A program made the translations under genes and the position numbers. A stretch of 64,000 bases of DNA from Marivirga sericea (GTDB lineage: Bacteria > Bacteroidota > Bacteroidia > Cytophagales > Cyclobacteriaceae), in contig NZ_FXAW01000002.1 in NCBI RefSeq assembly GCF_900177665.1, positions 186,001 through 250,000 of the forward strand, in the 5' to 3' direction. Shown here piece after piece: positions 39,839-64,000 of the stretch (the first letter of the stretch is position 1; every line of letters begins with the position of its first letter). Under the pieces are notes generated by a model that was given only the letters and a program-made list of their open reading frames with translations, had not been told where the DNA came from and did no database searches.

Positions 39839-41674
39839 ATGTGTGGAATTGTAGCATATGTAGGTCATCAGAATGCATCTGAGATTATCATAAAAGGATT
39901 AAAAAGATTAGAATATAGAGGCTACGACAGTGCTGGAATTGCATTAATGAACGATGGCCTTAAGGTTTATAAAAAACAAGGAAAAGTATCTGAATTAGAA
40001 GGTTTTTTAAAGGACAAAGATACCAAGAGCACAATTGGTATGGGGCATACTCGATGGGCTACTCACGGTGCACCCAATGATGAAAATGCACATCCTCATT
40101 ACTCTCAAAGCGGTGATTTGGCTATCATTCATAATGGGATAATTGAAAATTATTCCTCTCTTAAAACAGATCTAGAGAATAAGGGCTATAAATTTAAGAG
40201 TGAGACTGATTCTGAAGTTTTCATTAACTTTATTGAGGATATTTATAAGAATAATGAGGGCACATTGGAGGAGGCTGTTCGTTTGGCCTTGACCAAAGTA
40301 GTTGGAGCTTATGCTATTGTGATCATGTCCACCAATCATCCTAATCAATTAATTGCTGCCAGAAAGGGGAGCCCGTTGGTAATTGGAGTTGGAAAAGATG
40401 AATTTTTCTTAGCCTCAGACGCTACGCCTATTGTTGAATATACAAATGAAGTGATCTATGTAAATGATTATGAAATTGCCCTGATTAAGGATAATAAAAT
40501 AAGTATTCGCGACACCAAAGATGTGAAAATGACTCCATATATACAGAAAGTAGATATGGAATTAGAGGCTATAGAGAAAGGAGGTTTCGAACATTTTATG
40601 CTAAAAGAGATCTTTGAGCAGCCAAAATCGATTAGGGACTGTTTCAGAGGTAGATTAATTGCAAATGAGTCTAAATTAGTGCTTGGTGGCATCAGAGATT
40701 ATTCTAATGCACTTATTAATGCAGAAAGAATAGTAATTGTAGCATGTGGTACTTCATGGCATGCAGGTTTAGTTGCTGAGTATATTTTTGAAGAATTTTG
40801 TCGAATTCCTGTTGAGGTAGAATATGCTTCTGAATTTCGATATAGAAATCCAGTGATTCGAGAGGGGGATATTGTATTTGCTATTTCTCAATCTGGAGAA
40901 ACTGCCGATACTTTGGCCGCCATGGAACTGGCGAAATCGAAGGGAGCTATTGTGTTAGGGGTCTGTAATGTTGTAGGGTCTTCTATATCCAGAGTGTCTC
41001 ATGAAGGTGTTTATACCCATGCGGGGCCTGAAATAGGTGTGGCCAGTACTAAGGCATTTACGGCTCAGTTAACTGTGCTGACTATGATCGCCTTAAAAAC
41101 TGCTTTATTAAAAGGAACTATTGCAGAACAGCGTTATAGAGAAATATTGGTTGATTTGGAGAATATACCTGCAAAAGTGGAAAGAGCTCTAAAAACTGAT
41201 GATCAGGTCAAGAAAATTGCAGGTATTTATAAAGACGCTCGTAATTTCTTGTATTTGGGTCGAGGCTATAACTTCCCTGTCGCTCTGGAAGGAGCTTTAA
41301 AATTGAAAGAGATATCATATATTCATGCGGAAGGCTATCCAGCTGCAGAAATGAAGCATGGGCCTATTGCATTGATCGATGAGGAGATGCCTGTAGTTGT
41401 GATTGCGACTAGGGACAGTTCTTATGATAAGATTGTTTCCAATATTCAGGAAGTAAAAGCCAGAAAAGGTAAGGTGATAGCAATTGTGTCAGAAGGAGAT
41501 TCCCTAATCCCGGGCATGGTTGATCACACGATTGAAGTACCAGGTACGCACGAAGTATTAATGCCGATGGTGTCAACTATTCCATTGCAGTTATTGTCCT
41601 ATCATATTGCAGTTATGAGAGGTTGCAATGTAGATCAGCCAAGGAATTTGGCTAAGTCGGTGACGGTCGAATAG
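39839..41674 (+). CDS. glmS: Glutamine-fructose-6-phosphate aminotransferase GlmS
   Basis: 611 residues. The N-terminal nucleophile is Cys2 (MCGIVAYVGHQ); glutaminase blocks GYDSAGIALMND and HTRWATHG follow. The two SIS domains are seen at VVACGTSWHAG and ISQSGETADTLAAM, and the end is PRNLAKSVTVE. Makes glucosamine-6-P for peptidoglycan and LPS. The conserved 3' end is the Tn7 TnsD target, and a Tn7-like element has inserted just beyond the stop. Confidence 0.98.
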   Translation: MCGIVAYVGHQNASEIIIKGLKRLEYRGYDSAGIALMNDGLKVYKKQGKVSELEGFLKDKDTKSTIGMGHTRWATHGAPNDENAHPHYSQSGDLAIIHNGIIENYSSLKTDLENKGYKFKSETDSEVFINFIEDIYKNNEGTLEEAVRLALTKVVGAYAIVIMSTNHPNQLIAARKGSPLVIGVGKDEFFLASDATPIVEYTNEVIYVNDYEIALIKDNKISIRDTKDVKMTPYIQKVDMELEAIEKGGFEHFMLKEIFEQPKSIRDCFRGRLIANESKLVLGGIRDYSNALINAERIVIVACGTSWHAGLVAEYIFEEFCRIPVEVEYASEFRYRNPVIREGDIVFAISQSGETADTLAAMELAKSKGAIVLGVCNVVGSSISRVSHEGVYTHAGPEIGVASTKAFTAQLTVLTMIALKTALLKGTIAEQRYREILVDLENIPAKVERALKTDDQVKKIAGIYKDARNFLYLGRGYNFPVALEGALKLKEISYIHAEGYPAAEMKHGPIALIDEEMPVVVIATRDSSYDKIVSNIQEVKARKGKVIAIVSEGDSLIPGMVDHTIEVPGTHEVLMPMVSTIPLQLLSYHIAVMRGCNVDQPRNLAKSVTVE

Positions 41675-41700
41675 CATATAAAATGCTAAATAAGAATAGG
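41639..41700 (+). other. attTn7 target site with predicted 5-bp duplication
   Basis: The last 36 nt of glmS (41639-41674, coding PRNLAKSVTVE) are the TnsD-binding segment in Tn7. The predicted transposon end lies 26 nt past the stop; the 5 nt directly before it (ATAGG, 41696-41700) would be the target duplication. E. coli insertions lie about 25 nt past glmS. The second copy cannot be checked here because the other end is outside the window. Confidence 0.75.
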
Positions 41701-41708
41701 TGGGGTTC

Positions 41709-41916
41709 GATATTAAAGTTTGAACAAGTTTAATAAACTTTGAACATTTTTGTTAAAGTTTGAACAATGATTTTAGATAAAAGAGGCCTTAAATGGCCTT
41801 TTTTTATGTCCTCTTTAAATGGATGAGTTTTTTGAATCAAAAGTTTGAAATCAGCATCTTTTCAAGATACTTTTTGTTTAAAATAGTTTGATATTTTGTT
41901 TAATATAGTTTGAACA
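41709..41916. repeat. TnsB-binding-site-like repeat array at transposon end
   Basis: Repeats of AAAGTTTGAACA type: TTAAAGTTTGAACA at 41713-41726 and 41753-41766, AAACTTTGAACA at 41735-41746 (core spacing exactly 20 nt each), then CAAAAGTTTGAA near 41838, ATAGTTTGATA near 41884 and ATATAGTTTGAACA at 41903-41916. The core recalls the AATAGTTGGGAACT segment of Tn7 ends. Several overlapping sites near the tns-proximal end are the Tn7 pattern. Confidence 0.8.
41784..41805 (+). terminator. Terminator inside the transposon end
   Basis: AGGCC (41784-41788), loop TTAAAT, GGCCT (41795-41799) and a T-run to 41805. It sits between TnsB-type repeats 3 and 4, where it would stop glmS transcription before tnsA. 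Confidence 0.7.
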
Positions 41917-41954
41917 TCAGTACAAAATGTTAACTTTAAAAAAAAATTATCAAA

Positions 41955-42815
41955 ATGGGAGCTCCTAAAAAATATAAAACTAAAATTAAAGACGGACAAG
42001 GTGTTGGTGAAGGTATTGATTATAAGCCGTGGTATGAAGCCACAGAATATGTTCCAAAAACTGGCATCTACACTTCTCCAGGAGAGCGAAATAAGAAACT
42101 AGGAAACAATACTAGAAAAAAGGGGATAACTATACCTCGAATTCACCATCTACTTTCCAGTTATGAAATCTTCCTATTTACAGTTTTTGATTTAAACCCT
42201 AATATTATTGACATAAGGGAACAATTTCCTTTATTGAAATTAGACGAAGTGAGTGATATTTTTAAGTATTTTAATATAAAGCAAATACAGTCAGACGAAC
42301 CACATGTATTAACCACGGATTTTTTAATTAGGTTAAAGGACAAGTCGGAACTTGCAGTGACTTTTAAGCCTACTGAATTCCTTAGTAAAAGGCAAATGCA
42401 ATTATTTCAAGTAGAAAAAGAATACTGGCAAAGAAATGGTGTTGAATGGAAATTGTGCACTGAAAAGGAATTACCTCAATCAAAAACGTATTTAAAAAAT
42501 ATTAATGAACTACATAATAACTTGAAGACCTTTAAAGATGAATCCATTTCATTCTATACTGTTAATGCCATTTATTCATTTGTAAACGAATGTTCAAATA
42601 ACTTAAAAAATCATTCCTTATTAGAAGTGGCGCAAATAATTGATGAAGATTTATCCATCGATACAGGTACATCAATTACGGTTTTTAAAGTCTTGATTGC
42701 GAAAGGAATTTTTCAATTAGATTTAAACCAAAATTTCTTTTCAGAAAATATTCACATCAGTCAAATCAAAATCTTAAAAAATGGAGCTCTTAGTAAATCA
42801 GATATTGCAGCATAA
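41955..42815 (+). CDS. tnsA: Tn7-type transposition endonuclease TnsA
   Basis: 286 residues (Tn7 TnsA 273). The restriction-endonuclease-fold catalytic set is readable: E71 (LSSYEIFLF), D122 (LTTDFLIR) and K138 (VTFKPTEF). The E71-D122 distance of 51 equals that of Tn7 TnsA (E63-D114). It cuts the 5' ends of the element so that transposition is cut-and-paste, together with TnsB. C-terminal helical TnsC-interaction domain follows. First gene of the tns operon, with a 35-nt overlap with tnsB. Confidence 0.93.
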   Translation: MGAPKKYKTKIKDGQGVGEGIDYKPWYEATEYVPKTGIYTSPGERNKKLGNNTRKKGITIPRIHHLLSSYEIFLFTVFDLNPNIIDIREQFPLLKLDEVSDIFKYFNIKQIQSDEPHVLTTDFLIRLKDKSELAVTFKPTEFLSKRQMQLFQVEKEYWQRNGVEWKLCTEKELPQSKTYLKNINELHNNLKTFKDESISFYTVNAIYSFVNECSNNLKNHSLLEVAQIIDEDLSIDTGTSITVFKVLIAKGIFQLDLNQNFFSENIHISQIKILKNGALSKSDIAA

Positions 42816-44880
42816 TTCCAATTTCTATAGAGTTCTATACTTAAATGTCAAATTAGATATTTGCGTACTAATCAATTTAAGTGAAGAACAAAATCAACTG
42901 GAACATCTGGATATAGATTCGCTTACAAAACACAATTATATAGATCCAACTAACCCACCCTCAAATTTTAATACAACCATCCTAAATGAAGTAATTTTAG
43001 AATTAAAAGATAAAACCTTGGAAAGGTGGGAAAAATCATGGGAGCAAATAAAAGATCTTGTCATAGATGAACCTAATATTTTTGAAATTTCCTATTTGAA
43101 TAAAAAGTGCAAAGAGGTTTCAGAGAAGTATGATGTTTCTAGGCATACTGTTAAGAGAAACATTTTCAATTATTGGAGAAATGGCAAGACGAAGTATGCA
43201 ATTTTACCGAAGTACTACCTTTCTGGTGGAAAAGGAAAAGAGAGACAATTAGAACAAAATAACGCATTTACAATAACAGATAAGATAAAGGAGGAAATTC
43301 AAGCTGCCTATAAAGCAAATCGACCAGAAGGTAAAGATGGTACCTTGAGAGGAGCTTATATAAACTACATTAGATTAAAATATAAAAAAGAGTTTGATAA
43401 TAAGGAGACTAAAAAATACCCAAGTTTAACTCAGTTCTATTATTGGGGTACCAAAAATTTATCAAGCAGTGATAAATTGGCAATAAAAAAAGGGGTTTTA
43501 TCAAGGGATAAAGACCATAGATTGGTACCTGGATCTTCTTATAACAGCGTTTTCGGACCTGGTATTTTTCAGATAGACTCCACCCCCTCTGACGTGGAAA
43601 TTATATCCGAAATTGACTTAAGTGAACCAATTGGATGCCCTACAGTATATTTCGTTGCAGATATATTTAGTGGATTATGTACTGGAATTTATGTCACTTT
43701 AGAAAATCCATCTTACCACGAGGCTAGCACTGCTTTGTATTATAGTTTTAAAGGATTTTCAATGTTTGCTAATGATATGCTACTCGGTACTTTAAACAAG
43801 TTTAATGTTGATGCAACTAGTGCGTTTTATCCTAGTACTTTTCTTCCACATCAAATTGTTACAGATAATGGAAAAGAATTAGTTAGCCGTAATTCTAATA
43901 ATATTATAACTGATTTGGGTATTGATATTGAGAACAAAGAAGCTTACCGAGCCGATTTAAAAGGTTTAGTTGAAAATTTTTTTAAAATCTATCACAAAGA
44001 TCTAAAATGTTTCCCAAAAGAAATAGGACATAAAAATATGGCCGAGGGTAGAAGAGGTATTAAAAAGGCAAGAAAAAATGCCACTTACACTTTAAAGCAA
44101 TATACTGCAATGATTGCAGTAGCAATGGCTAATTACAATCATAAGTGTTCATTGAAAAAATATCCGTTAGCTCCTGAAATGATAAAGGATGGGCTAGTAG
44201 ATCCATCGCCAATTGAAGTTTGGAATTGGGGAATGAAAAATAGAACAGGATTACTTAGGTCAAGTGAGATTTCAAATCTCAAAGAGTTAATGCTACCAAG
44301 AGCTGTAGGGAAACTAAATAAGCATGATCTTGAGTTTGAAAAAATCAAGTATGAAACGCCTCTTCATAAAGATTTGCGAAATATACAGCAACAAACAGGA
44401 GAAGTCAAATTAAAATATGATATTTCATATAATCCGAATAATATGAATACCATTAATCTTTTCTTCAATAATGAAATTATAAAATGTAGCATTAATGAAC
44501 AGAAAAACCCGGGACTAATTAATAAAAGTTTAAAAGAAATAAGGGCCTTTAACAAAGTTCGAAAGAATGTAAAAAAAGAAAAAGAGCATGATAGAGATTC
44601 TGGAACTATGGATATTTTAGATATGGCCGATTCATTTAAAAAAGAAAATGATAAGAAAAGAAAATCTAAAGGACAAAAAAGTACTAATAAGGCCAAGGTG
44701 AGCTACAACAGGGAAAGAGAAAAAGAATACGAAAGACAACAAAAAGAATTTAAATCCACAGAAGAGCCTAATTCAGATACAAAAATCATTGATATCAATA
44801 CATCAAAAGAGAACAAAAGAATAGAAGGTGATATAGGTGATATCTTAGATGATATCTATAAAAATATGGACAATGAATAA
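42781..44880 (+). CDS. tnsB: Tn7-type transposase TnsB (DDE)
   Basis: 699 residues (Tn7 TnsB 702). DDE triad: D266 (GIFQIDSTPSD), D362 (QIVTDNGKEL), E398 (DLKGLVENFF), close to Tn7's D273/D361/E396. An N-terminal HTH region (KCKEVSEKYDVSRHTVKRN) would bind the end repeats, and a long charged C-terminus (about 600-699, Lys/Glu-rich) should contact TnsC. It breaks and joins the 3' ends. Confidence 0.95.
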   Translation: MELLVNQILQHNSNFYRVLYLNVKLDICVLINLSEEQNQLEHLDIDSLTKHNYIDPTNPPSNFNTTILNEVILELKDKTLERWEKSWEQIKDLVIDEPNIFEISYLNKKCKEVSEKYDVSRHTVKRNIFNYWRNGKTKYAILPKYYLSGGKGKERQLEQNNAFTITDKIKEEIQAAYKANRPEGKDGTLRGAYINYIRLKYKKEFDNKETKKYPSLTQFYYWGTKNLSSSDKLAIKKGVLSRDKDHRLVPGSSYNSVFGPGIFQIDSTPSDVEIISEIDLSEPIGCPTVYFVADIFSGLCTGIYVTLENPSYHEASTALYYSFKGFSMFANDMLLGTLNKFNVDATSAFYPSTFLPHQIVTDNGKELVSRNSNNIITDLGIDIENKEAYRADLKGLVENFFKIYHKDLKCFPKEIGHKNMAEGRRGIKKARKNATYTLKQYTAMIAVAMANYNHKCSLKKYPLAPEMIKDGLVDPSPIEVWNWGMKNRTGLLRSSEISNLKELMLPRAVGKLNKHDLEFEKIKYETPLHKDLRNIQQQTGEVKLKYDISYNPNNMNTINLFFNNEIIKCSINEQKNPGLINKSLKEIRAFNKVRKNVKKEKEHDRDSGTMDILDMADSFKKENDKKRKSKGQKSTNKAKVSYNREREKEYERQQKEFKSTEEPNSDTKIIDINTSKENKRIEGDIGDILDDIYKNMDNE

Positions 44881-46396
44881 ATTACATGAAGCAGTTTATG
44901 TAAAGTCAGATAACCCTGATCATGAGGGTAATCCTTTGATTGAAGCTTTACCTAGGTTGAATAACATTAAAGATTACTTCCGATATTGTGCAACAAACTC
45001 CATACACACCAGAGAGGAAGCAATTGAAAAGCCTTATCATATACGAAGGGATTATTTAAACCAGTTACAAAAAGATTTTGTATTGCCCAATTATGGAATT
45101 TGGGACGTATACCAGATGATTGTCAATGCACTTTTCACAAGCTATTCTTCTCGAAACCCTATTAAGGAAAACACCACAGAAAAAGTAATAAAGGATTATA
45201 GAGATTTATTACAAATAAGGGATCTGACAACAAAAGTTGCAGTAAGTAACAGTTGTTCTTTGTTCGGAATAAGTGGAATAGGAAAAACAACCGCTGTAAA
45301 TCTGGCCACTAGCACTTTTCCTAAAGCAATATTGCATAAGAATTTAGATTGTGAAAATTTTATTCAGATTCCGATTGTAAAGGTAGAATGTCCGAAGGAT
45401 GGTAGTATAAAAGACCTATGTCGATTTTTTTTTATAGAGCTTGATAAAATTTTGGGCGATTCCACATATGAAGATGATTACTGCAAAAAAAATGATTCTG
45501 AAAGTGATCGAGTTAACGCTTTATCTAAATTAGTTCTCAAACATCATATAGGAATTATAATAGTAGATGAAATACAACATTTGGATGCACAAAAAAGTGG
45601 TGGTGAAAAAAGAATGCTTCGCTTCTTTTTAAATTTAGATAATACATTAGGTATCCCTATCATGCTTGTAGGGACTAGAGACGGCATCGCAATATTCAAA
45701 GATGATGACAAACTAATTAGGAGATTTACTGCATCTGGGTTCTTGGAATGGAACCCTAAGCCAGAAGATGGGGAGTGGAAAAGATTTATTCAACGCCTCT
45801 TTAATTATCAGTATACAGATGAGAAAGCTGATGACAATATCGACTGGCCACGATTGTTTTATCATTATTCTCAAGGTATCTACTCTCGCGCATTCCAAAT
45901 CTTTAAAATTGCGCATCATTTGGCCTTTGATTATAATAAAGAGAAATTTACCGTCTCCTTAATCAATCAAGTAATTAGGGAAAGGCTTTATATCGATGAG
46001 CCTCTATTTGAAATAAAGCGGAAAGATAAAATAAAGGAACGTAATTATAATTTCCCATTAGAAGAAATTGACTACACTGATTACAGATCAATAGAAGTAA
46101 AAAATAAATTAGTCGAAAAAAAGATTTCATCAAATATTTTCAAAGGCAAGGTAACAAAAACGCTAGAAAGAAATAAGGAATTAAGTGCACAAGAAATAGC
46201 AGATAAAATAATCTTAGATCTCACATCAAAACCTGAAAAAACTAAAACTGTAAGTAAAAAGAAGGATATTAATGAGGAAGAGGAAGTACTGGCTGCAAAT
46301 ACCTTTGCTAATCTATTTTGTGAAGATAAAGACGAGACCTATCAAAAGGTAAAGGAATTTGGGGATATTTTCGAATTCGAAAAATTTAGATTGTAA
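44873..46396 (+). CDS. tnsC: Tn7-type ATP-dependent target regulator TnsC
   Basis: 507 residues from ATG 44873 (MNKLHEAVYVK), which overlaps the tnsB stop by 8 nt; a Met nine codons upstream in frame is less likely. AAA+ ATPase: Walker A GISGIGKTT (132-140), Walker B IIIVDEIQHLD (D232-E233). It bridges the target selector (TnsD or TnsE) to the TnsAB transposase and gives target immunity. Confidence 0.95.
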   Translation: MNKLHEAVYVKSDNPDHEGNPLIEALPRLNNIKDYFRYCATNSIHTREEAIEKPYHIRRDYLNQLQKDFVLPNYGIWDVYQMIVNALFTSYSSRNPIKENTTEKVIKDYRDLLQIRDLTTKVAVSNSCSLFGISGIGKTTAVNLATSTFPKAILHKNLDCENFIQIPIVKVECPKDGSIKDLCRFFFIELDKILGDSTYEDDYCKKNDSESDRVNALSKLVLKHHIGIIIVDEIQHLDAQKSGGEKRMLRFFLNLDNTLGIPIMLVGTRDGIAIFKDDDKLIRRFTASGFLEWNPKPEDGEWKRFIQRLFNYQYTDEKADDNIDWPRLFYHYSQGIYSRAFQIFKIAHHLAFDYNKEKFTVSLINQVIRERLYIDEPLFEIKRKDKIKERNYNFPLEEIDYTDYRSIEVKNKLVEKKISSNIFKGKVTKTLERNKELSAQEIADKIILDLTSKPEKTKTVSKKKDINEEEEVLAANTFANLFCEDKDETYQKVKEFGDIFEFEKFRL

Positions 46397-46400
46397 AAAC

Positions 46401-48233
46401 ATGCTTTATTATTGGCCTCATACATATCCTGATGAAATTCTATACAGTGTGATTGCCAGATATTTAAAAATTTCCGGAAGCCGAGGCCCCAAGCATTTAT
46501 TAAATAATCTTTTTGACAGAAAAACTATTAGTGCAACGCTTGATCTACCTAGCGGATTAAAAGATTTAATACATAACCTAGAAATGTTTGATAAGGATGT
46601 TGAAATGATTTTGGCCGATAACACCCTCTTCCCGTATTATCAGCCATTTTTAACTCCAACAAAAGCTGGGAAAGTTAGACACTCCATGTTAAATAAATCA
46701 GGAGATATTCATACGCTGATCGGTATTAACGCTGGCATTTTCCCCGCTGGAAAATCACCAAAATATTGCCCCATGTGCGTAAAAGAAGATAAATCTGAAA
46801 ATATATCGCCCTACTTGAGAAGAACCCATCAAATCCCATCAATACAAATTTGTACTCAACACAATATATATTTATTAGAATTAAATAAGAGTAGAGTTAA
46901 TTTTAACAAACATGAGTTTTTATTTCTTGAAGATCACTTAGATCAATTTAGCTTAATTGAACAAAATGAATCTACTGAATACCTCAATATTTGTAAGGAT
47001 ATTGAAAAACTGTTGAAAGGAAAGCAAAATCCTTTTGATGCTGATGACCCCTTCTTCTATCGGAAGGAATTATTTAAACATGGCTTAGTTAAAAACGCAA
47101 ATCAACTAAGTACTCAGGGGTTATATGAAAACTTTACTGACTTATATAACGACACTCTATTGGCTAAATTTAAGTCATCAGTAAATTTGGATAACCCTTC
47201 TTGTTGGTTAAAAGGAATATTTAGAAAACACAGAAAAGGCTTCGACCCCTGTCGGCATGTTATAATAGACAATTTTTTGAAATATTTAGAAACAAAAAAT
47301 GAAAGCCTAGAAGTCATTGAAATTGAAAATATAAAGTATCCTTGTTTAAATAAAGTGTGTGAGCATTACAATCAGTCAATCCAAACTACATTTTCAAGAC
47401 ACATTGACCATAAATCCAAACGGCAAATTACTTTGGTTGAATGTAATTGCGGACATAAATATACTCATAGCTATATAACTAGTAAGCAAAACTATTTTAC
47501 TAGAATAAAAGAATATGGACCCGTATGGCATTCTAAACTAAATCAACTTTTGGTAGAGAAAAAAATGAGTATAAGAGCTATTGCCCGAATGTTAGGATGT
47601 GACTCCAAGACGATCAATAAATTTAAATCAATAAAAGTAGTAGGCGATTCCACACCTAAAACTGAATTGAAGGAGAAGCAGGAAATTTGGCAACAGCATA
47701 TTAGGAAAAATCCTAAATCTGGGATTACTGAACTAAGAAAAAAGATGCCTGCCCTGTTTGCATTTTTATATCGGAATTGTAAAGAATGGTTACAAAAACA
47801 GCAATACCATAAATCTAAGCCAAATTCGAAATTAAGGATTAATTGGAAAGCAAGGGATCTTGAAATTCTCGAAGAATTAAAGATAGCAAGATCAAATGCT
47901 CTGAAAGAAAATCCAAAAAAAAGGATTACAAAAAGCTTACTTCTCATAATGGTGAAAAAAGAAAAAATGTTTTATAACAATCAAGAAAAGCTTAAAAATT
48001 GTGAAGAATACTTATCTAAAACTCATGAGTCGAAGTATTTTCATAGAAAAAAAAGACTTGTTCTTTCTGCTTTAGAAATGAAAGACGAAAAAGCAGAAAT
48101 TTCTTACTGGACACTCTTAAGAAAAGCAGGCATAAGAAAAGAATACCTTAACTATGAATTAATTCAAATTGCTAAAGGGATTGTAAATGGGACTTTTGAA
48201 TTATCAAGACAAGCATTCATTAAAACTGCATAA
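46401..48233 (+). CDS. tnsD: Tn7-type target selector TnsD (TniQ family)
   Basis: 610 residues from ATG 46401 (MLYYWPHTYPDE), 4 nt past the tnsC stop. TniQ-type start (PHTYPDEILYSVIARYLK) and a CCCH zinc site: C123, C126, C151, H154, nearly identical in spacing to Tn7 TnsD (C124, C127, C152, H155). An HTH at about 389-408 (MSIRAIARMLGCDSKTINKF) lies in the C-terminal region. TnsD binds the glmS 3' end, agreeing with where this element sits. It is about 100 residues longer than E. coli TnsD. Confidence 0.94.
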   Translation: MLYYWPHTYPDEILYSVIARYLKISGSRGPKHLLNNLFDRKTISATLDLPSGLKDLIHNLEMFDKDVEMILADNTLFPYYQPFLTPTKAGKVRHSMLNKSGDIHTLIGINAGIFPAGKSPKYCPMCVKEDKSENISPYLRRTHQIPSIQICTQHNIYLLELNKSRVNFNKHEFLFLEDHLDQFSLIEQNESTEYLNICKDIEKLLKGKQNPFDADDPFFYRKELFKHGLVKNANQLSTQGLYENFTDLYNDTLLAKFKSSVNLDNPSCWLKGIFRKHRKGFDPCRHVIIDNFLKYLETKNESLEVIEIENIKYPCLNKVCEHYNQSIQTTFSRHIDHKSKRQITLVECNCGHKYTHSYITSKQNYFTRIKEYGPVWHSKLNQLLVEKKMSIRAIARMLGCDSKTINKFKSIKVVGDSTPKTELKEKQEIWQQHIRKNPKSGITELRKKMPALFAFLYRNCKEWLQKQQYHKSKPNSKLRINWKARDLEILEELKIARSNALKENPKKRITKSLLLIMVKKEKMFYNNQEKLKNCEEYLSKTHESKYFHRKKRLVLSALEMKDEKAEISYWTLLRKAGIRKEYLNYELIQIAKGIVNGTFELSRQAFIKTA

Positions 48234-48235
48234 TT

Positions 48236-49798: not shown

Positions 49799-49956
49799 CT
49801 TTCTACTTAAGGAAAAATATGACTGATGATCTTAAGGTATCAAATTTGACTAATGTCAAAATCTTCATCAGATTCATCGAATAATACGGTCATCCTATGT
49901 GATTCTAGGAAATTTTACCTTAATTTAAGTCATTATTATATCAATTAAATCCATAA

Positions 49957-52764: not shown

Positions 52765-52771
52765 AGAAAAC

Positions 52772-55026: not shown

Positions 55027-55031
55027 TATTT

Positions 55032-56369
55032 ATGAAATCAACTTGGTTATATAGGGAACTAGGAGAAATAATTAAAACTACATCAGGTGGTACCCCATTG
55101 AGGTCAAATTCAGATTTTTATAACGGAAATATCCCTTGGATTAAATCAGGTGAATTAAAACATAATATAATTTTCAACGCGGAGGAACATATTTCCGAAG
55201 AAGCTATTAGAAAGTCTAGCGCTAAACTTTTCCCTGCGGGCACTATACTTATTGCATTATATGGAGCAACTATCGGTAAACTTGCGATCCTCGGTATTCC
55301 TGCATCAACTAATCAAGCTGTATGTGGAATTTATAAGAATGACATTTTTGAGACAAAATTTCTCTTTAACTATCTATTCCATAAAAAACAGAAACTTATT
55401 GATCAAGGAGCAGGTGGTGCACAGCCGAATATTAGCCAGACTATCTTAAAAAAACTTTCAGTACCAGTTGTCCCCCTCCCAGAACAAAGATCAATAGTAT
55501 CTAAAATAGAACAACTTTTTAGTGAATTAGATAATGGAATAGTTAATCTAAAATCTGCTAAGGAAAAACTAGAAGTTTATAGACAGGCTGTACTGAAAAG
55601 AGCTTTTGAGGGGGAATTGACGAAGGAATGGAGATTTCAACAGGATTTGCCCAATGCTGCAGAACCTATTCCTATTTATGTAAAAAATGAAAATATCAAA
55701 AATGAACTTCCAAAAGATTGGGAATGGGTTAAATTGGGAAGTGTCTTATTGCATTCAAAAGAAAAATATAAACCGGAAACTATTCAAAAGCAATTTTATA
55801 TTGGATTAGAACACATATTAAAAGATAAAGGTGAATTAAGTAATAATGTTTGTGAAGAAGTTATAAAAACTGTTAAAAATAAATTTAAAAAAGGTCAAAT
55901 TCTATATGGTAAACTTAGGCCTTATCTTAATAAAGCGTATTTGGCAAAAGAATCTGGTGTTTGTTCTACAGATATTTTAGTGTTTGATTTATCAAAAAAC
56001 ATTTTGGGCGAATTTGCCATCAACTACATTCTTAGCAGAAGATTTGTAAATGATATGTCGGAAAATACCAGTGGAGTGAACTTACCTAGGGTTTCAACAA
56101 AATACATTAACAATTACCTTGTCCCTTTACCACACGTTTCCGAGCAAAAACAAATAGTCCAAGAAATTGAATCTCGACTTTCGGTTTCCGATAAATTAGC
56201 TGAAAGCATCAATGAAAGTTTAGAAAAATCAGAAGCTTTAAGGCAAAGTATATTGAAAAAGGCTTTTTCAGGTGAATTATTAACCGAAAAAGAATTGGAT
56301 GCATGCAAGCAAGAAGCAGATTGGGAGCCTGCTGAGAAGTTATTAGAGAGAATCAAAAAATCAAAGTAA
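55032..56369 (+). CDS. hsdS: Type I restriction specificity subunit HsdS
   Basis: 445 residues with two target-recognition domains (about 1-145, opening ELGEIIKTTSGGTPLRSNSD; about 225-370, WEWVKLGSVLLHS) each followed by a helical spacer: VPLPEQRSIVSKIEQLFSEL with YRQAVLKRAFEGEL, and VSEQKQIVQEIESRL with LRQSILKKAFSGEL. Sets the bipartite sequence recognised by HsdM and HsdR. Only a single hsdS; no inverted repeats or recombinase suggest shuffling. Confidence 0.95.
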   Translation: MKSTWLYRELGEIIKTTSGGTPLRSNSDFYNGNIPWIKSGELKHNIIFNAEEHISEEAIRKSSAKLFPAGTILIALYGATIGKLAILGIPASTNQAVCGIYKNDIFETKFLFNYLFHKKQKLIDQGAGGAQPNISQTILKKLSVPVVPLPEQRSIVSKIEQLFSELDNGIVNLKSAKEKLEVYRQAVLKRAFEGELTKEWRFQQDLPNAAEPIPIYVKNENIKNELPKDWEWVKLGSVLLHSKEKYKPETIQKQFYIGLEHILKDKGELSNNVCEEVIKTVKNKFKKGQILYGKLRPYLNKAYLAKESGVCSTDILVFDLSKNILGEFAINYILSRRFVNDMSENTSGVNLPRVSTKYINNYLVPLPHVSEQKQIVQEIESRLSVSDKLAESINESLEKSEALRQSILKKAFSGELLTEKELDACKQEADWEPAEKLLERIKKSK

Positions 56370-58181
56370 ATGAATATAATACCCAAAGACCAAACAATAC
56401 ATGGATTGCTTAATAATCCTATGGAGCAATTAATTATTCCTGCATACCAAAGAAGATATGCGTGGAGTTACAATCAAACATTTGCATTGTTTGAAGATAT
56501 TGATATGCTACAACCAAATGACGGACATCTCTTTGGAATGCTAATTTTACATACTGGATATCATCAAGGCGGAATAAATGAAATAGATGTAGTTGATGGT
56601 CAACAAAGACTAACTACTATAACTTTATTATTACATGCTTTAAAAACCAAATTTAGTGAAGTAGGCAGGGAACATATTAACCATCAAATACAAACCATGT
56701 TGTATTGTGGGAATGATTCTAGTAAGCCTAAAATTATTCTTGGAGAACTCGATAATAAGGATTTTAAAAAAATATTAAAAGGTGAGCAAGAAGGTATAAA
56801 AAATCTGAATCTAATTAATGCTTTAAATTATTTCAATGAATTAATATCAAATAGGATAAATGAAGAAGGTGAAGAATGGCTGGATAAATTTTATAATAAA
56901 TTAACGCATACTGCAAAAATAATTCGCTTAGATGTGCAGCAGGCACAAGATGCTTACAAGTTATTCGAAACTATTAATAACAGAGGATTGAGGTTATCAG
57001 CAACCGACATACTCAAAAATTTTATACTAGGCCATGCCGCTAAAATAGGTAAGCAAAAACTTGAAGAGGTGAAAGAACAATGGAGTTCTTTAATTACTAC
57101 CTTAGACGGTATTCCTACTGATGATTTTTTCCGACAATATATAAGTAGTATCTATACTAGGCGAGTTACAAAATCAAAACTGATTGAATACTTTAAAGAG
57201 GACTACTTGAATAAAGTAGATAATGTGGATTTGATTGGAGAATATGCATATTATTCAGATTATTATAATGGTGCCGAGGAGTCAAATGACCCGGAAGATG
57301 AAGTGGAAGAAGCCCCTGAAGATCAGCCAAAAAGCAAAAAAGTCAAAAATAGCCATTCTAGAATCGATATAACAAACTACATACAGCAAATTTTGAGTTG
57401 TGCAGAGGTATATTCAAATATCTGGAACAAGACTTTTGATGAAGAGAAATTAAATAAAAAACTTAGAGACTTAAGTGATATTAAATCATTTCCAACTTAT
57501 ATCTTCCTAATGCACTTTTTACAAAGAGGTAAAACGCTTAATGAAAAGCTAGAAGTATTGGATATGATTAGTGCCTTAATGTTAAGAAGGCATGTTTGCG
57601 CAAGAAGAACCAGCGAAAATGATATTATATTTTCAAGAGTTCTACGTATTGAGGATGATGAAAACTTTATTGATAATTTTAAGGAAGAATTAATACTTGA
57701 TTATCCTAATGATGAAGAATTCGAGGACAGATTCCCAAATCACGAATTGAAGTCTAGTCTGCATAATAGAGCAAAATATATATTAAGGGAAATTGAATAT
57801 ACGCTAACTGGTGGTACAGGAGAAATTACTATAAATGCGGGAAATGATGTACATCTTGAACATATAATTCCACAAAAGATAAAGTCCCAAAAATCAAAAG
57901 AGGAATTTGGAGATTGGGAAAGTTATTTAGGTGAAAAATCACTCACTAAACATCCTAGATATGTAAACCGAATTGGAAATATGACTTTGATAGCGGGTGA
58001 TCTTAATATCTCTGTTTCCAACAATCCATTTGTGAGTAAAAGAAAGGCATATAATAAATCAAACATTAAATTGACGAAAGAGATTGGAGAAAATTATACA
58101 GGCTTCAAATTCAAAGATATTGAAGAAAGAGGAAAGGAATTAGCAAAAACTGCACTTGAAATCTGGAGAATTGAAGGTTAA
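56370..58181 (+). CDS. DUF262/DUF1524 GmrSD-type modification-dependent nuclease
   Basis: 603 residues, a fusion of both GmrSD parts. DUF262 motifs: IPAYQRRYAWSYNQ (23-36) and VVDGQQRLTT (DGQQR 76-80), a ParB-like NTP-using core. C-terminal HNH: HLEHIIPQK (HLEH 495-498) with NRIGNMTLI. Such enzymes cut DNA with modified (glucosylated hydroxymethyl) cytosine. Begins at the base directly after the hsdS stop. It would complement a type I system that modified phage DNA escapes. Confidence 0.92.
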   Translation: MNIIPKDQTIHGLLNNPMEQLIIPAYQRRYAWSYNQTFALFEDIDMLQPNDGHLFGMLILHTGYHQGGINEIDVVDGQQRLTTITLLLHALKTKFSEVGREHINHQIQTMLYCGNDSSKPKIILGELDNKDFKKILKGEQEGIKNLNLINALNYFNELISNRINEEGEEWLDKFYNKLTHTAKIIRLDVQQAQDAYKLFETINNRGLRLSATDILKNFILGHAAKIGKQKLEEVKEQWSSLITTLDGIPTDDFFRQYISSIYTRRVTKSKLIEYFKEDYLNKVDNVDLIGEYAYYSDYYNGAEESNDPEDEVEEAPEDQPKSKKVKNSHSRIDITNYIQQILSCAEVYSNIWNKTFDEEKLNKKLRDLSDIKSFPTYIFLMHFLQRGKTLNEKLEVLDMISALMLRRHVCARRTSENDIIFSRVLRIEDDENFIDNFKEELILDYPNDEEFEDRFPNHELKSSLHNRAKYILREIEYTLTGGTGEITINAGNDVHLEHIIPQKIKSQKSKEEFGDWESYLGEKSLTKHPRYVNRIGNMTLIAGDLNISVSNNPFVSKRKAYNKSNIKLTKEIGENYTGFKFKDIEERGKELAKTALEIWRIEG

Positions 58182-58199
58182 ATAAATTTAATATTACAA

Positions 58200-58520
58200 A
58201 TGAATAATTTAAATATTCATAAATATGAAGATATCTGGAAGCCCTTAATACCAAATATCATCGAATCTGTCAGAGAAGGAAAATCTCTAGAGTTAAATAT
58301 GAATAACAAAGATTTTAAGGCTGTTGGGAAAAGGAAGAATTATAGTTTTCGACTGGAAATTGAAAATAATACTGTTAAAAATAATATTGATGGAAGTGCT
58401 GTAGCTAGAGATTTAGCCAGAATATTAACTAGTAATTCTAATTTTTTACAAGCTTTAAATAAAAGAACCGTACTTCTGCGACTAGATAAAAACTTTACTT
58501 TTAAAATGGAAATCATTTAA
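58200..58520 (+). CDS. Small unknown protein in defence operon
   Basis: 106 residues, basic overall, no signal or TM. Segments NYSFRLEIENNTVKNNIDGS and RTVLLRLDKNFTFKMEII suggest beta strands around a helix. Lies 18 nt after the DUF262 gene and 2 nt before hsdM. No family recognised; could be a cofactor or inhibitor for the adjacent nuclease. The frame is well embedded in the operon, so it is probably expressed. Confidence 0.6.
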   Translation: MNNLNIHKYEDIWKPLIPNIIESVREGKSLELNMNNKDFKAVGKRKNYSFRLEIENNTVKNNIDGSAVARDLARILTSNSNFLQALNKRTVLLRLDKNFTFKMEII

Positions 58521-58522
58521 TC

Positions 58523-60037
58523 ATGACCGAATCATCCCTAATATCAAAAGTCTGGAATTTTGCCAATGTATTGCGTGATGATGGCGTAGGCTATGGTGAT
58601 TATTTAGAGCAAATCACCTATCTGCTTTTTCTTAAAATGGCAGATGAGCTCACTCGCCCGCCTTATAATAAAAAGATGGATTTTCCTCGAATTAAGGATT
58701 TGGAGGGCAATGAAATTGAAGATGGTGATTTTTGCAATTGGGAAACATTAAGTAAAAAACGTGGTGCAGAGTTGGAAGCTTATTATAGCCAAATGCTGCG
58801 ATCTTTAGGCACAGAAAAAGGAATTTTAGGTCAAATCTTCACTAAATCTCAAAATAAAATTCAAGATCCTTCTAAATTGCTCAGGGTAATTGATATGATT
58901 GGCAAAGAGCAATGGACTATGGTGGGTGCTGATGTAAAAGGAGATATTTACGAAGGTTTATTAGAGAAAAATGCTTCGGATACCAAAAGTGGAGCCGGTC
59001 AATATTTTACACCTCGTTCCTTAATTCAAGCTATGGTGGCTTGTGTGGCACCAGAGCCGATGAAAAGCATACATGACCCAAGCTGTGGCACGGGCGGGTT
59101 TTTCTTGGCAGCTTATGATTATATTATCAAAAACCATGAGCTAAATAAAGAGCAAAAAGCTTTTCTGAAGAACAATACCTTTTCTGGTAATGAAATAGTA
59201 GCCGGTACTCGTAGGCTTTGCTTGATGAATATGTTCTTGCATAACATAGGTGAAATAGATGGAGATACTTTCATCTCACCTAATGATGCATTAATTGCTG
59301 ATGAAGGAAATCGTGTGGATTACGTCTTAGCCAACCCACCTTTTGGTAAGAAAAGCAGCATGACGATCACCAATGAAGAAGGTGAGCAGGAAAAGCAAGA
59401 ACTAAGCTATAACAGGCAAGATTTCTGGGCTACCTCAAGCAATAAGCAGTTAAATTTTCTGCAGCATATCCGATCTTTATTAAAGATAAATGGAGAAGCA
59501 GCAGTTGTTTTGCCTGATAATGTCCTTTTCGAAGGAGGATCAGGAGAAACGGTTAGGAAAGAGTTGATGAAAACCACGGAGCTCCATACCATTTTAAGGT
59601 TGCCAACTGGTATTTTCTATGCCCATGGTGTAAAAGCCAATGTTCTGTTCTTTGATAACAAGCCAGCATCCAAAGAAGCCTGGACACAAGATGTCTGGAT
59701 ATATGATTACAGAACCAATGTCCATCATACCTTGAAGAAGAACACCATGAAGTTGGAGGACTTGAAAGACTTCATCAAGTGTTACAATCCATCCAATCGG
59801 AATGATAGGAAAGAAACTTGGTCAGAAGAAACTCCTGATGGCAGATGGAGAAAATATTCCTATGATGAAATCATTGCCCGAGACAAGACCAACCTAGATA
59901 TCTTCTGGCTAAAAGACAAAAGCCTGGCAGACCTTGACAACCTCCCAGACCCTGATGTTTTAGCAAGCGAAATTATTGAGAATATTGAAGCTGGATTGGA
60001 GAGTTTTAGAGTGATACAAAAGGAATTGGATAGGTGA
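58523..60037 (+). CDS. hsdM: Type I DNA methyltransferase HsdM
   Basis: 504 residues. N-terminal HsdM helical domain; GAGQYFTPRSL (158-167), SAM motif I DPSCGTGGF (185-193), catalytic NPPFG (271-275). An N6-adenine methyltransferase that works with HsdS to protect self DNA. Separated from hsdR and hsdS by four and two genes respectively, an unusual order. Confidence 0.96.
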   Translation: MTESSLISKVWNFANVLRDDGVGYGDYLEQITYLLFLKMADELTRPPYNKKMDFPRIKDLEGNEIEDGDFCNWETLSKKRGAELEAYYSQMLRSLGTEKGILGQIFTKSQNKIQDPSKLLRVIDMIGKEQWTMVGADVKGDIYEGLLEKNASDTKSGAGQYFTPRSLIQAMVACVAPEPMKSIHDPSCGTGGFFLAAYDYIIKNHELNKEQKAFLKNNTFSGNEIVAGTRRLCLMNMFLHNIGEIDGDTFISPNDALIADEGNRVDYVLANPPFGKKSSMTITNEEGEQEKQELSYNRQDFWATSSNKQLNFLQHIRSLLKINGEAAVVLPDNVLFEGGSGETVRKELMKTTELHTILRLPTGIFYAHGVKANVLFFDNKPASKEAWTQDVWIYDYRTNVHHTLKKNTMKLEDLKDFIKCYNPSNRNDRKETWSEETPDGRWRKYSYDEIIARDKTNLDIFWLKDKSLADLDNLPDPDVLASEIIENIEAGLESFRVIQKELDR

Positions 60038-60080
60038 TGCTATTTATCTTCTATAATTTAATAAACTGATAAATACTAAA

Positions 60081-63000
60081 TTGAGCATTAATTGGAATAA
60101 CATACGAGCGATTGAAGGGCAAAGAGAAGGCTTTGAGGAACTAATATGCCAATTGGCAGGTCAAGAAAAAATAAATGACCAGATGAAGTTCTTCAGAATT
60201 GGAAAACCAGATGCAGGAAAGGAATGTTACTGGGAATTAAACAATGGGAATATCCACTGCTGGCAAGCAAAGTATTTTACTAATAGCTTATCTGATAGTC
60301 AGTGGACACAAATAGATAAGTCAGTTAGAACAGCTATAGATCACCACCCAACTTTAATAAAATATTATGTAGCCATCCCAGTTGACCGTCCAGACGGGAA
60401 AAGCCGTGGGAAATCAATGCTCCAAAAATGGAAGGATCACGTTACCCTATGGAAAAAATACGCTTCCTCAAAAAAGATGGAAGTTAACTTTGAATATTGG
60501 GGAAAACATGAATTAGAAACTCGACTTAGAAAGCCCGAAAATGAAGGTTTGATTTATTATTTTTTTAATGAACGAGAATTATCGGATAGTTGGTTTGACT
60601 TAAAAAATCAGGAAAGTATCGATGCCCTAGGTGGCAGATACACACCGGAAATAAATTTCAGTTTACCATTTTTGAATTTCCATAATGGCTTTACCAGAGA
60701 CCAAAAGTTCACTTTTCAAATCAATGGTTATTATGAGACAATTCTGGAAAAACATAGAAGAATACACTTAAGAAGCAAAAAAGAGGATCTTGAAAAAGAA
60801 ATTACTCTAATAGATTCTGCTGTTAGTACTTTTAGAAATGTCTATGAAAGAACTTCATTTTCTGGGATAAGTAATATTCCTTATGAAGATCTTAAAATCG
60901 AACTAGACAATATCAAAGAATTAGTTTATGAAATATCGGAAAAGCTTTATGGTTGGCAAAAAGAGGTTGAGGATGATAAGGAAAGAAAAGGAGAGAAAAT
61001 CGATTACAATGCTCGTGCTTTCAGTGGTGAACTTCACGAATTACACAAACTATCAATAGCACTAGATGACTTTCATGATTTTTTGGGTTCGGAAGTATGT
61101 ATACTTGCAAATAAACCTTTTTTAGTATTAGTTGGTCCAGCTGGTATCGGAAAATCGCATGCCCTAGCTGATATAGTCACGGAGAGACAAAGAAATAGTA
61201 TGACAAGTCTCTTCCTTCTAGGCGAAAACTTTTCAACAAATGAAATGCCTTGGACGCAAATTTTAAGAAATCAATTGCGTTTTGTAGGTAATGAAGATGC
61301 TTTTTTAGGTGCAGTGAATGCGAAAGCCGAAAGTCAGCAAAGTAGAATCTTATTCATTATTGATGCTCTTAACGAAGGAAATGGTAGATACATCTGGCCA
61401 AAGAAACTCAAATCATTCATTCGAACTTTTGAAAAATATCCATGGCTTGGACTTATAGTTAGTATTCGGGATTCATTTGAAGATTTAGTAGCTCCAGAAA
61501 AAGACCTTGATTCAGTTGCCACTCGTTTATACCATCCAGGTTTTGAAAGTCTTGAATATGAAGCTTCAATACACTTTTTCAAACATTTTCAAATCACTCC
61601 ACCTGGCTCCCCCTTACTTCGGCCCGAATTCCAGAACCCTCTTTTCTTAAAGCTTTTTTGTGAAGGATTATACAGAAAAGGTTTAAATCAAATACCTGAC
61701 GGATATCAGGGTATTACTGCAATTATAGATAATTACATTGAAGGTGTTGAAGAAAAATTAGCTCAACCAGATCAATTACACTATGATATTAAATTAAAAT
61801 TACTTCAAAAAGCAATCAAAGAGATTTTGCTGAGGATGATTGAAGAAGAAAATGACCATATATCATACCTTATTGGAGACGAAATAGTAAGCAAAGTTTT
61901 TGAAGGCAAATGTAGTAGTATTGATAAACAATATCTAAAATGCTTGATTTCTGAGGGTATAATCAATGAAGATTTGTACTGGAAAAATCAACATCATTAT
62001 GAGGGGATTCACTTTGCTTATCAACGATTCCAAGATCATCTCATTATTTCAGCATTATTAGATAAATATTTTGATAGTAATTATCCCGAAAAATCATTTG
62101 AATCCGGACCTTTAAGAGCATTACTCAAAGATGAAAATGAAGTGATTTTTAACCGACATTTTCTTGAAGCTCTTTCAATCCAGATACCTGAACGTATAAA
62201 TAAGGAACTATATGAGGTGGTACCAGATTTAGCTTATTATAATGCAACAGCTATTGCTTTTATTAATAGTTTGATCTGGAGACGAAAAGATACTATTGGC
62301 GATAATTCTTTAAAATATGTCAATGAAGTCATTGTAAAAAATGAAACCCTATTTCATAGATTTTTGGATATGTCGATTTCCATGGCATTAAAACCAGATT
62401 TTTATTTCAATGCCGATAGACTTCATCATAATCTATATAATAAATCATTGGCTGAACGAGATGCATTTTGGACAACTTGGCTACAAAATAAATATGGAGA
62501 GAATTCTAGTCATAATTCAGTGAAGCGATTAATCGACTGGGCATGGAGCGAATATCCTAAAGAAGAAATCGATGAAGAATCCATAAGGTTAGCAGCAATT
62601 ATGCTAGCTTGGTTTCTTTCTAGTTCAAATAGATATTTAAGAGATGCTTCTACTAAAGCATTGGTTAGTCTTTTGCAAAATAGAATCTCCGTATTACAAA
62701 AAGTATTGCAACAATTCGAGAATATAAATGATCCATACATCTACGAAAGATTGTATGCTGTGGCATACGGATGTACTTTAGGAACTAAGAATCATCATTC
62801 TATAATTTCACTTAGCAAGTATATTTATAAAATTGTATTTGATGAGAAATATGTCTATCCACATATTTTGCTTCGTGACTATGCTAGAGGTGTGATTGAA
62901 TATGCAATTAGCCTTAATTTAAAACTTTCTATAAATATTAATAAAATTCGTCCGCCATATAAAAGTAAGTTACCCAGTAATTTACCAACTATTGAAGAAA

Positions 63001-64000
63001 TAGATTCTAAGTACAAACCAGAAGACAATGATGGCATCTATGGGGGAATTAAATGGGGTGCCACAGCAATCCTGCACTCCATGACGACTGAATATGGCCG
63101 AGGGGGAGGATATGGTGATTTCGGAAGATATGTCTTTCAATCTGCATTGAGCAACTGGGATGTCAATTATGATGCTTTAAGTAATTATGCAATTCAGAGG
63201 ATATTTGAACTAGGCTATGATCCAGAAATTTTTACCAATTTTGATCTACAACAAGGATCTGGTAGAAGTAGTGGAAACTTGGAGCGAATTGGTAAGAAAT
63301 ATCAGTGGTTAGCTTTTTATGAAATTCTTGCCGTAGTTTCCGACAATTGCAATTTGATTGACGAAAGTAGCAATCCATGGAGTAAAAACAAACAGTTTTC
63401 TGAATATGAAGGTCCGTGGAATCCTTATGTACGAGACATTGATCCTACTATATTACTTAAGTCAATAAGTAGCAATAATTATATTAATAAAATAGAAAAA
63501 GAGCCTTGGTGGGTAAACCAAAATTATAAAAGCTGGGAAGGTGATTTTGAATCTTGGAAGAAAAAATCTAGTGACTTTCCGGAGATAATTGACTTATTAA
63601 CGGTAAAAGATTCGAATGAGGTTGAATGGATAAATCTCGCTGAGACTATAGAATGGGAGGAACCAAAAAAAGTAGGTGAAGATAAATTTAGTGCAAAAGG
63701 TAAAAGAATTTGGTACGATATTGGAAGTTGGTTGGTGACTAAAAAAGAACTTTCAAAAATACTTAGAGAAAAAGAAGCTGAAAATAGCTGGAAATATTGG
63801 TTCCCTTCTGTTCCGACTCGCTATCAGGTGTTTAGTAGAGAGTTCTATTGGTCACCTGCTTCAATCTTCTTCCAAGCCAATCAATATGCAGGTGGTGATT
63901 CTATGCCTAGGCAATTAGAGAATAGAAAATCTGGAAAAATTATAGCAGAAGCTTTTCATACCGCATTAAACTTTCATTGGGAAGAGGAATATGATTGCTC
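60081..64000 (+). CDS. Avs-like STAND NTPase with N-terminal restriction-endonuclease-like domain, partial at right edge
   Basis: I read this frame by hand: after TAA at 60054-60056 it stays open from TTG 60081 to the right edge (1306 codons). The TTG start is preferred since family-like residues (WNNIRAIEGQREGFEEL) precede the first in-frame ATG at 60183. Nuclease-like domain about 1-135: PD44, E48 and QAK (62-64), a PD-(D/E)xK pattern. STAND ATPase: Walker A GPAGIGKS (352-359), Walker B ILFIIDALNEG (D428). Then more than 850 residues, probably helical repeats for target sensing. This architecture is that of Avs antiphage sensors; subtype not decidable. Begins 44 nt after hsdM. Confidence 0.82.
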   Translation, partial: MSINWNNIRAIEGQREGFEELICQLAGQEKINDQMKFFRIGKPDAGKECYWELNNGNIHCWQAKYFTNSLSDSQWTQIDKSVRTAIDHHPTLIKYYVAIPVDRPDGKSRGKSMLQKWKDHVTLWKKYASSKKMEVNFEYWGKHELETRLRKPENEGLIYYFFNERELSDSWFDLKNQESIDALGGRYTPEINFSLPFLNFHNGFTRDQKFTFQINGYYETILEKHRRIHLRSKKEDLEKEITLIDSAVSTFRNVYERTSFSGISNIPYEDLKIELDNIKELVYEISEKLYGWQKEVEDDKERKGEKIDYNARAFSGELHELHKLSIALDDFHDFLGSEVCILANKPFLVLVGPAGIGKSHALADIVTERQRNSMTSLFLLGENFSTNEMPWTQILRNQLRFVGNEDAFLGAVNAKAESQQSRILFIIDALNEGNGRYIWPKKLKSFIRTFEKYPWLGLIVSIRDSFEDLVAPEKDLDSVATRLYHPGFESLEYEASIHFFKHFQITPPGSPLLRPEFQNPLFLKLFCEGLYRKGLNQIPDGYQGITAIIDNYIEGVEEKLAQPDQLHYDIKLKLLQKAIKEILLRMIEEENDHISYLIGDEIVSKVFEGKCSSIDKQYLKCLISEGIINEDLYWKNQHHYEGIHFAYQRFQDHLIISALLDKYFDSNYPEKSFESGPLRALLKDENEVIFNRHFLEALSIQIPERINKELYEVVPDLAYYNATAIAFINSLIWRRKDTIGDNSLKYVNEVIVKNETLFHRFLDMSISMALKPDFYFNADRLHHNLYNKSLAERDAFWTTWLQNKYGENSSHNSVKRLIDWAWSEYPKEEIDEESIRLAAIMLAWFLSSSNRYLRDASTKALVSLLQNRISVLQKVLQQFENINDPYIYERLYAVAYGCTLGTKNHHSIISLSKYIYKIVFDEKYVYPHILLRDYARGVIEYAISLNLKLSININKIRPPYKSKLPSNLPTIEEIDSKYKPEDNDGIYGGIKWGATAILHSMTTEYGRGGGYGDFGRYVFQSALSNWDVNYDALSNYAIQRIFELGYDPEIFTNFDLQQGSGRSSGNLERIGKKYQWLAFYEILAVVSDNCNLIDESSNPWSKNKQFSEYEGPWNPYVRDIDPTILLKSISSNNYINKIEKEPWWVNQNYKSWEGDFESWKKKSSDFPEIIDLLTVKDSNEVEWINLAETIEWEEPKKVGEDKFSAKGKRIWYDIGSWLVTKKELSKILREKEAENSWKYWFPSVPTRYQVFSREFYWSPASIFFQANQYAGGDSMPRQLENRKSGKIIAEAFHTALNFHWEEEYDC

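Follow-up and report, generated by a model that had tools for sequence, protein, structure and literature searches.

Downstream of glmS in a Marivirga genome (G000; Bacteroidota), we identified a Tn7-type transposon of 98.7 kb which, with high confidence, is complete and probably mobile, belongs to a Bacteroidota clade of elements encoding TnsA, TnsB, TnsC, TnsD and TnsE (TnsABCDE), and probably joins its target with a 4-bp stagger. The window, that is, the whole 64,000-nucleotide stretch analysed (G000:C15:186001-250000), holds one end of this element, its transposition genes and the first part of its cargo; positions on the contig carry the prefix C15, window positions carry none. An earlier examination of the window, hereafter the original prediction, had proposed a Tn7-like transposon in a Bacteroidota chromosome; it proves right both in what it observed and in how it interpreted it, and the host genus agrees with the phylum.

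The glmS stop lies at 41674, and 26 nt further on the tip TGGGGTTC opens the element at 41701. Three TnsB-type repeats of the AAAGTTTGAACA type follow at 41715, 41735 and 41755 with a spacing of 20 bp, so that insertion point, 8-nt tip and repeats are all as originally predicted. The far end, correctly expected outside the window, was located on the same contig (C15:326311-326392); it comprises inverted TnsB-type repeats (C15:326311-326378) and the tip TAGGGCTC, identical to the near tip at six of eight positions. Read from outward to inward, the far end is TAGGGCTCAACAATAAAGTTTGAACA and the near end TGGGGTTCGATATTAAAGTTTGAACA. The element measures 98,692 bp, and the joined stretch contains no Ns. 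The features at the glmS side are as follows.

39839..41674, + strand: glmS, open reading frame (ORF), its 3' end being the attachment site
41697..41700, + strand: near copy of the target duplication, TAGG (far copy C15:326393-326396)
41696-41700, + strand: the near copy in a 5-bp reading, ATAGG
41701..41770, + strand: glmS-side transposon end, 8-nt tip and three TnsB-type repeats
41776..41812, + strand: hairpin and T's within the transposon end (fold -14.1 kcal/mol)
41701..64000, + strand: part of the element within the window, continuing to C15:326392

The 12-mer AAAGTTTGAACA has five exact copies in the 4.74-Mb genome, and a reversed-pattern control has none. Four of the five sit at the element ends, two near and two, inverted, 98.6 kb away on the same contig, which rules out chance as the source of the array. 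Measured from the tips, the repeats lie at offsets of 16/36/56 at the glmS-side end versus 16/38/72 at the far end, and these asymmetric arrays are kept within 1 nt in three related elements (G006, G008 and G925). The inverted arrays would be the sites bound by TnsB.

An uninterrupted site, which the original prediction had suggested seeking in relatives, is present in G009, of the same genus, where the homologues of both G000 flanks are only 56 nt apart. Beyond these 56 nt, the G009 DNA is 78% identical over 1,089 bp to the G000 flank starting 92 nt past the far end; the gene in this flank, next to glmS in G009, is MraY/WecA-like as judged by eye. When the two G000 flanks are joined, they form a hairpin followed by T's, indicating that the element sits at the start of the apparent glmS terminator; the far side keeps the hairpin (far-flank fold -11.2 kcal/mol). 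The hairpin at 41776..41812 could possibly serve glmS as a substitute terminator, and a terminator pattern scan of the near end reported the terminator-like stem there on the minus strand only. Rfam (gathering threshold) and tRNA scans of the window returned no matches.

DNA resembling the last part of glmS was present in 45 of 59 genomes searched, and insertions 23-28 nt past the glmS stop, with the tnsA side towards glmS, were observed in G000, G001, G006, G008 and G925 (the G925 distance was counted by eye). The elements measure 74.9 kb in G006, 28.2 kb in G008 (Marivirga atlantica) and 27.9 kb in G925 (same family); in G001 (L059) the contig ends within tnsD. At one further site, in G007 (L075:3405-3460), a solitary M. 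atlantica-type end with a single repeat lies 23 nt past glmS; no tns gene was matched on its contig, and neither tnsD nor tnsE was found in this 88%-complete draft. This case touches in part on whether the repeats also occur in strains lacking tns genes; it is probably the scar of an earlier, decayed insertion, which fits better than an unrelated repeat.

All five tns genes of the predicted set were found, and their ORFs are all open:

41955..42815, + strand: tnsA, endonuclease (Pfam TnsA N and C)
42781..44880, + strand: tnsB, DDE transposase (D266, D362 and E398 aligned to the Tn7 catalytic residues)
44849..46396, + strand: tnsC, AAA+ regulator (TniB/AAA_22; Walker A GISGIGKT, Walker B IIIVDE)
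46359..48233, + strand: tnsD, TniQ and TnsD C-terminal domains (Pfam); the conserved start is probably 46401
48236..49798, + strand: tnsE, C-terminal domain with EVDSSDGKYISTL and IRHPR

TnsA residues E71, D122 and K138 align with the catalytic residues E63, D114 and K132 of Tn7, and T136 takes the place of Q130, a T that also occurs in L060. TnsB gave no Pfam or NCBIfam match, and its closest solved structure is Tn7 TnsB (7pik, E 9.7e-42). TnsD matched PF15978 (E 9.5e-67), PF06527 (E 1.2e-18) and the Tn7 TnsD structure (E 4.8e-27). TnsE was recognized by Pfam TnsE_C (PF18623, E 4.9e-8), by profile alignment to E. coli TnsE (hhalign, E 3e-5 over 363 columns) and by a fold search with its predicted model, in which the best seven matches were chains of the Tn7 TnsE C-terminal domain, all with probability 1.00; only this fold match was used from the model. 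Library scans covered 63 of the 103 ORFs of the element, nine by PADLOC and 54 by Pfam with or without NCBIfam. In the scanned ORFs, the pairing of cas genes with TniQ that defines a CRISPR-associated (clustered regularly interspaced short palindromic repeats) transposon was absent; the sole Cas-labelled match, of HsdR to a type IV DinG helicase model (E 1.1e-7), is a helicase cross-match, and no cas gene was recognized by eye in the element's ORF list. A scan of viral contigs with TnsE yielded none.

The length of the target duplication was evaluated in the four complete glmS insertions (G000, G006, G008 and G925), with boundaries assigned from tip symmetry. With T...A tips, each of the four elements has its first TnsB site at an offset of 16 nt from either end, and these symmetric tips leave exact 4-bp flanking repeats in every case (TAGG, AAAT, GTCA and AGTG). 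Across shifts of up to 2 nt per end and lengths of 4-9, only the 4-bp setting fitted all four, with the best 5-bp setting fitting three. Three E. coli Tn7 copies were fetched as controls, and the two at glmS with readable flanks, treated likewise, gave 5 bp (GGGCT and GCGGG); the duplication of the S17-1 copy (L147) was not readable, as the compared stretch ended at an annotated neighbour, and is outside this count. Five elements were left out of the duplication count, namely G877, which lies away from glmS and whose flanks share no repeat, and G922, L060, G001 and G910, for which one junction is missing. A 4-bp duplication is the likely state of the clade, albeit on the small number of four elements. 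The second ATAGG anticipated by the original prediction does lie directly past the far end (C15:326392-326396); compared with the 5-bp duplication it implied, a 4-bp TAGG beside the terminal A of the element is more likely.

The competing interpretation is the usual 5-bp duplication, with a far tip one base shorter than the near one and a point mutation in one copy in G006. Moving the far boundary in by one base yields perfect 5-bp repeats in three of the four elements (ATAGG, AGTCA and AAGTG), the G006 copies then differ by a single base (TAAAT/AAAAT), and a review states 5 bp for Tn7 and all related elements (PMC11406308). This interpretation, however, needs unequal tips in all four elements, with the first TnsB site 16 versus 15 nt in, whereas the assigned T...A boundaries give 16 and 16; it also requires an A as the first duplicated base at all four far junctions, and the equal tips of the two E. 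coli controls yield 5 bp directly. We consider it unlikely, and a 4-bp duplication the better account.

Several observations weigh against a complete, mobile element of a 4-bp clade. No transposition was observed, and one residue of the TnsA catalytic site is changed (Q to T). TnsE bears a weak resemblance to TnsE proteins known so far (E 0.0059 in a profile search of the PDB; hhalign probability 73%), its predicted model is poor (mean pLDDT, the predicted local distance difference test, 51.6), and searching 72,556 plasmids with TnsE gave no match. G877, of the same clade, lacks a target repeat and is not at glmS; its first TnsB site lies 14 nt in at both ends. G000 taken alone is compatible with either length, 4 or 5 bp, and three of the four elements accommodate 5 bp if their tips are unequal.

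Some of this would suit a relic that is structurally complete and no longer mobile. Besides the lack of observed movement, the solitary G007 end suggests that such insertions decay, and one cargo gene, for a Na/Ca exchanger homologue, is broken into a pair of overlapping ORFs (C15:261677-262572, beyond the window), probably by a frameshift. Yet the five tns ORFs are open, all but one of the catalytic residues in TnsA and TnsB are intact, both ends are present, and in G006 the same core, its proteins 87-92% identical, is combined with mostly different cargo; immobility is improbable. Far more remote is a genomic island holding tns genes and repeats by chance, whose far repeats would not be the other end. 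The far tip matches the near tip at just six of eight positions, as such an island would allow, but the far array is inverted, is in register with those of G006, G008 and G925 and abuts the second target copy, and the gene beyond it is the one adjoining glmS in G009; this explanation is contradicted by that second copy and by the uninterrupted site in G009. A complete and probably mobile transposon remains the best explanation.

In the mechanism we propose, TnsC would be recruited by TnsD bound to the 3' end of glmS. TnsA and TnsB would then excise the element at its two TnsB-site arrays; the insertion point would be 26 nt beyond the stop codon of glmS, at the start of the apparent terminator hairpin, with the 20-bp-spaced array towards glmS and, as is probable for the whole Bacteroidota TnsABCDE clade, with joins staggered by 4 bp, not 5. 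Through TnsE, the element would also be able to enter DNA that is being replicated or transferred by conjugation. It acts as a vehicle with a fixed core, made up of both ends and tnsABCDE, and a cargo that can be exchanged and that in G000 consists of a defence block and, after it, a metal/stress island.

Comparison with G006 bears on this division. The two genomes share 8,690 bp at 91% identity, spanning the glmS end, the transposon end and tnsABCDE. Shared cargo amounts to 3,922 bp at 90% and 391 bp at 86% (~4.3 kb), with no other blastn piece above 150 bp. A common core with mostly different cargo indicates that cargo is exchanged while the core stays. Within the window, the cargo consists of the following genes.

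49957..52764, + strand: HsdR, type I restriction subunit (PADLOC; NCBIfam below curated cut-offs)
52772..53776, + strand: NA37, 37-kD nucleoid-associated-protein family (Pfam)
53773..55026, + strand: unknown protein with apparent C-terminal membrane segments, by eye (no Pfam/PADLOC match)
55032..56369, + strand: HsdS, type I specificity subunit (PADLOC)
56370..58181, + strand: GmrSD-type/HEC-06 defence protein (Pfam, PADLOC)
58200..58520, + strand: small unknown ORF in the restriction-modification block (no Pfam/PADLOC match)
58523..60037, + strand: HsdM, type I methyltransferase (PADLOC)
60081..64000, on to C15:250361, + strand: Avs2-type antiviral protein (PADLOC)

The type I restriction-modification genes are interrupted twice, by the NA37-family and unknown proteins between hsdR and hsdS (52772-55026) and by the GmrSD/HEC-06 gene between hsdS and hsdM (56370-58181); these three proteins are possibly extra defence parts inside the block. 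The defence genes proper cover ~14 kb (C15:235957-250361), or 18 kb with the adjoining genes to C15:254305; phosphoesterase and helix-turn-helix genes come after Avs2. The defence cargo of the original prediction is present. Its placement in a single operon with the tns genes is not shown, since 158 nt separate tnsE and hsdR, and the label of defence island describes only part of the cargo, most of the remainder being metal/stress genes. These fill ~71 kb from C15:254481, mostly on the opposite strand; beyond Avs2, 50 of 90 ORFs of at least 50 aa were scanned. Their products include two resistance-nodulation-division (RND) pumps, a cation-efflux protein, heavy-metal P-type ATPases and a multicopper oxidase. 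The island also encodes an ArsP-type permease, a MerT-type protein, an ArsR-type regulator, PPK2, NhaA, Usp and P-II proteins, and further carries DeoC-type aldolase, phosphoribosyl pyrophosphate (PRPP)-synthase-like and phosphorylase genes. GC content rises from 31-33% across the tns and defence genes to 41% in the metal/stress island. An 8-kb piece of the island, searched against plasmids, gave two partial Pontibacter matches covering 11% and 4% of the query. Annotation would predict phage-defence and metal-resistance phenotypes for this cargo.

In TnsB trees, the Bacteroidota TnsABCDE elements form one clade, whether five (support 100/99) or seven sequences (100/100) were included, apart from those of E. 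coli, Klebsiella and Tn7 (99/99 and 100/99); G604 and G026, Bacteroidota without a tnsE match, fall outside it. The original prediction had called a canonical five-gene Tn7 unusual in Bacteroidota, which is fair, although the Marivirga element is not unique: at least seven of 335 family genomes carry tnsE (G000, G006, G008, G877, G910, G922 and G925). Among the genomes sampled, TnsE protein was detected in 3 of 10 from the genus and 2 of 390 from the order; the TnsB profile matched 3 of 395 from the phylum, and the TnsD profile 17 of 335 from the family and 2 of 395 from the class. Six of the other TnsD-positive family genomes lack tnsE in the fetched stretch (G026, G954, G968, G974, G984 and G992); among the 17, G001 is cut off, and G855, G883 and G913 are outside the tnsE tally. 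Pfam TnsE_C hit 2 of 395 phylum genomes and missed G000 itself, and the TnsE surveys missed relatives, so all TnsE counts are lower bounds; the TnsD profile was the more sensitive probe. Two short patterns searched against genome contigs gave three loci.

The six genomes without tnsE (L117-L121 and L078) carry other TnsABC sets, and five of the six have an additional TnsD-like stretch. From a different branch of the phylum, G465 has a TnsE_C match directly after glmS, in two overlapping ORFs (L079:6219-7501) and with no tns match within the 3.4-kb locus around it, and G476 (L043), of the same genus, a partial one; both look like Tn7 remnants. In G922 and G877, the far end of the TnsABCDE element abuts the 5' coding part of ridA. 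The G922 ridA loci are L131:18997-19356, L116:3206-3562 and L116:11577-11927, with extra copies beside tnsE and tnsA, and the other end of this element was not found; in G877, ridA lies at L136:1-80, with a further copy beside tnsE. This suggests ridA as a second attachment site, with spare copies carried along by the elements. A TnsD switch was considered and is not shown, as the ridA-flanked elements are not one group in TnsD or TnsB trees. Tentatively, and with slightly more doubt than belief, we propose that the clade joins with a 4-bp stagger, moves up to ~99 kb, with antiviral defence and metal/stress tolerance delivered together, and has in part moved its insertions to the 5' end of ridA.

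The clade places TnsE in a phylum whose conjugative elements are very different. The 99-kb load indicates that one TnsABCDE insertion can bring a phage-defence block and a metal/stress island to a safe chromosomal site. Duplication length reflects how far apart the two strand-transfer sites lie in the TnsB complex; a 4-bp Tn7-type transposase occurring in nature, if real, would mean that strand-transfer geometry can change, and would provide a comparison for CRISPR-transposon engineering. It would also contradict the 5 bp that the review extends to all Tn7 relatives (PMC11406308).

With E. coli Tn7 (L147-L149, L066), the Marivirga element shares the tnsABCDE order, the tnsA side facing glmS, inverted tips, the TnsB DDE triad, the TnsA E/D/K residues and a glmS site 26 nt past the stop, compared with 25 nt in two Tn7 copies at glmS. 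It differs in that its TnsB is 24% identical to L066, its far tip is not identical to its near tip, its duplication is probably 4 bp versus 5 bp, and its length is 98.7 kb, against ~14 kb for Tn7. Closer relatives are G008, G925 and a Bacteroidales metagenome-assembled genome (L060), which have tnsABCDE, TnsB-type end repeats and the same TnsB clade (100/100), with the glmS site common to the G008 and G925 elements. Nevertheless, the latter two are 28 kb long, TnsB and TnsE of the three are 33-40% and 24-28% identical to those of G000, respectively, and the end repeats of G008 and L060 contain GGACA.

Bacteroidetes hosts are also known for the clade 3 Tn7-like transposons of Benler et al. 2021 (PMC8649781). 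In the available part of that article, clade 3, which also holds Tn5053 and Tn6022, is the only one for which Bacteroidetes are mentioned, Tn7 is in clade 1, and tnsE occurs in both clades; the solved structure nearest to the Marivirga TnsB is that of Tn7 TnsB. The same source gives median sizes of 14-29 kb with a maximum of 140 kb, and reports defence and heavy-metal cargo for Tn7-like elements generally, heavy-metal genes being abundant, so that the Marivirga size and cargo are high-end and not new. According to the review, nearly all Tn7-like elements that target glmS have TnsE, for which it sees no mechanistic information outside Tn7 (PMC11406308). Another study assigns tnsE to relatives of Tn7 and to Tn6022 (379 loci), its main text being free of the word Bacteroid- (PMC10293859), and two Bacteroidota papers mention TnsE once each (PMC10936215, PMC11885536). 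In the open-licence literature, supplementary tables excluded, we found no earlier report of Bacteroidota TnsABCDE elements or of a 4-bp Tn7 duplication. Together, these comparisons identify the Marivirga element as part of a little-described Bacteroidota branch of Tn7-type transposons, whose probable departure from textbook Tn7 is its 4-bp duplication.

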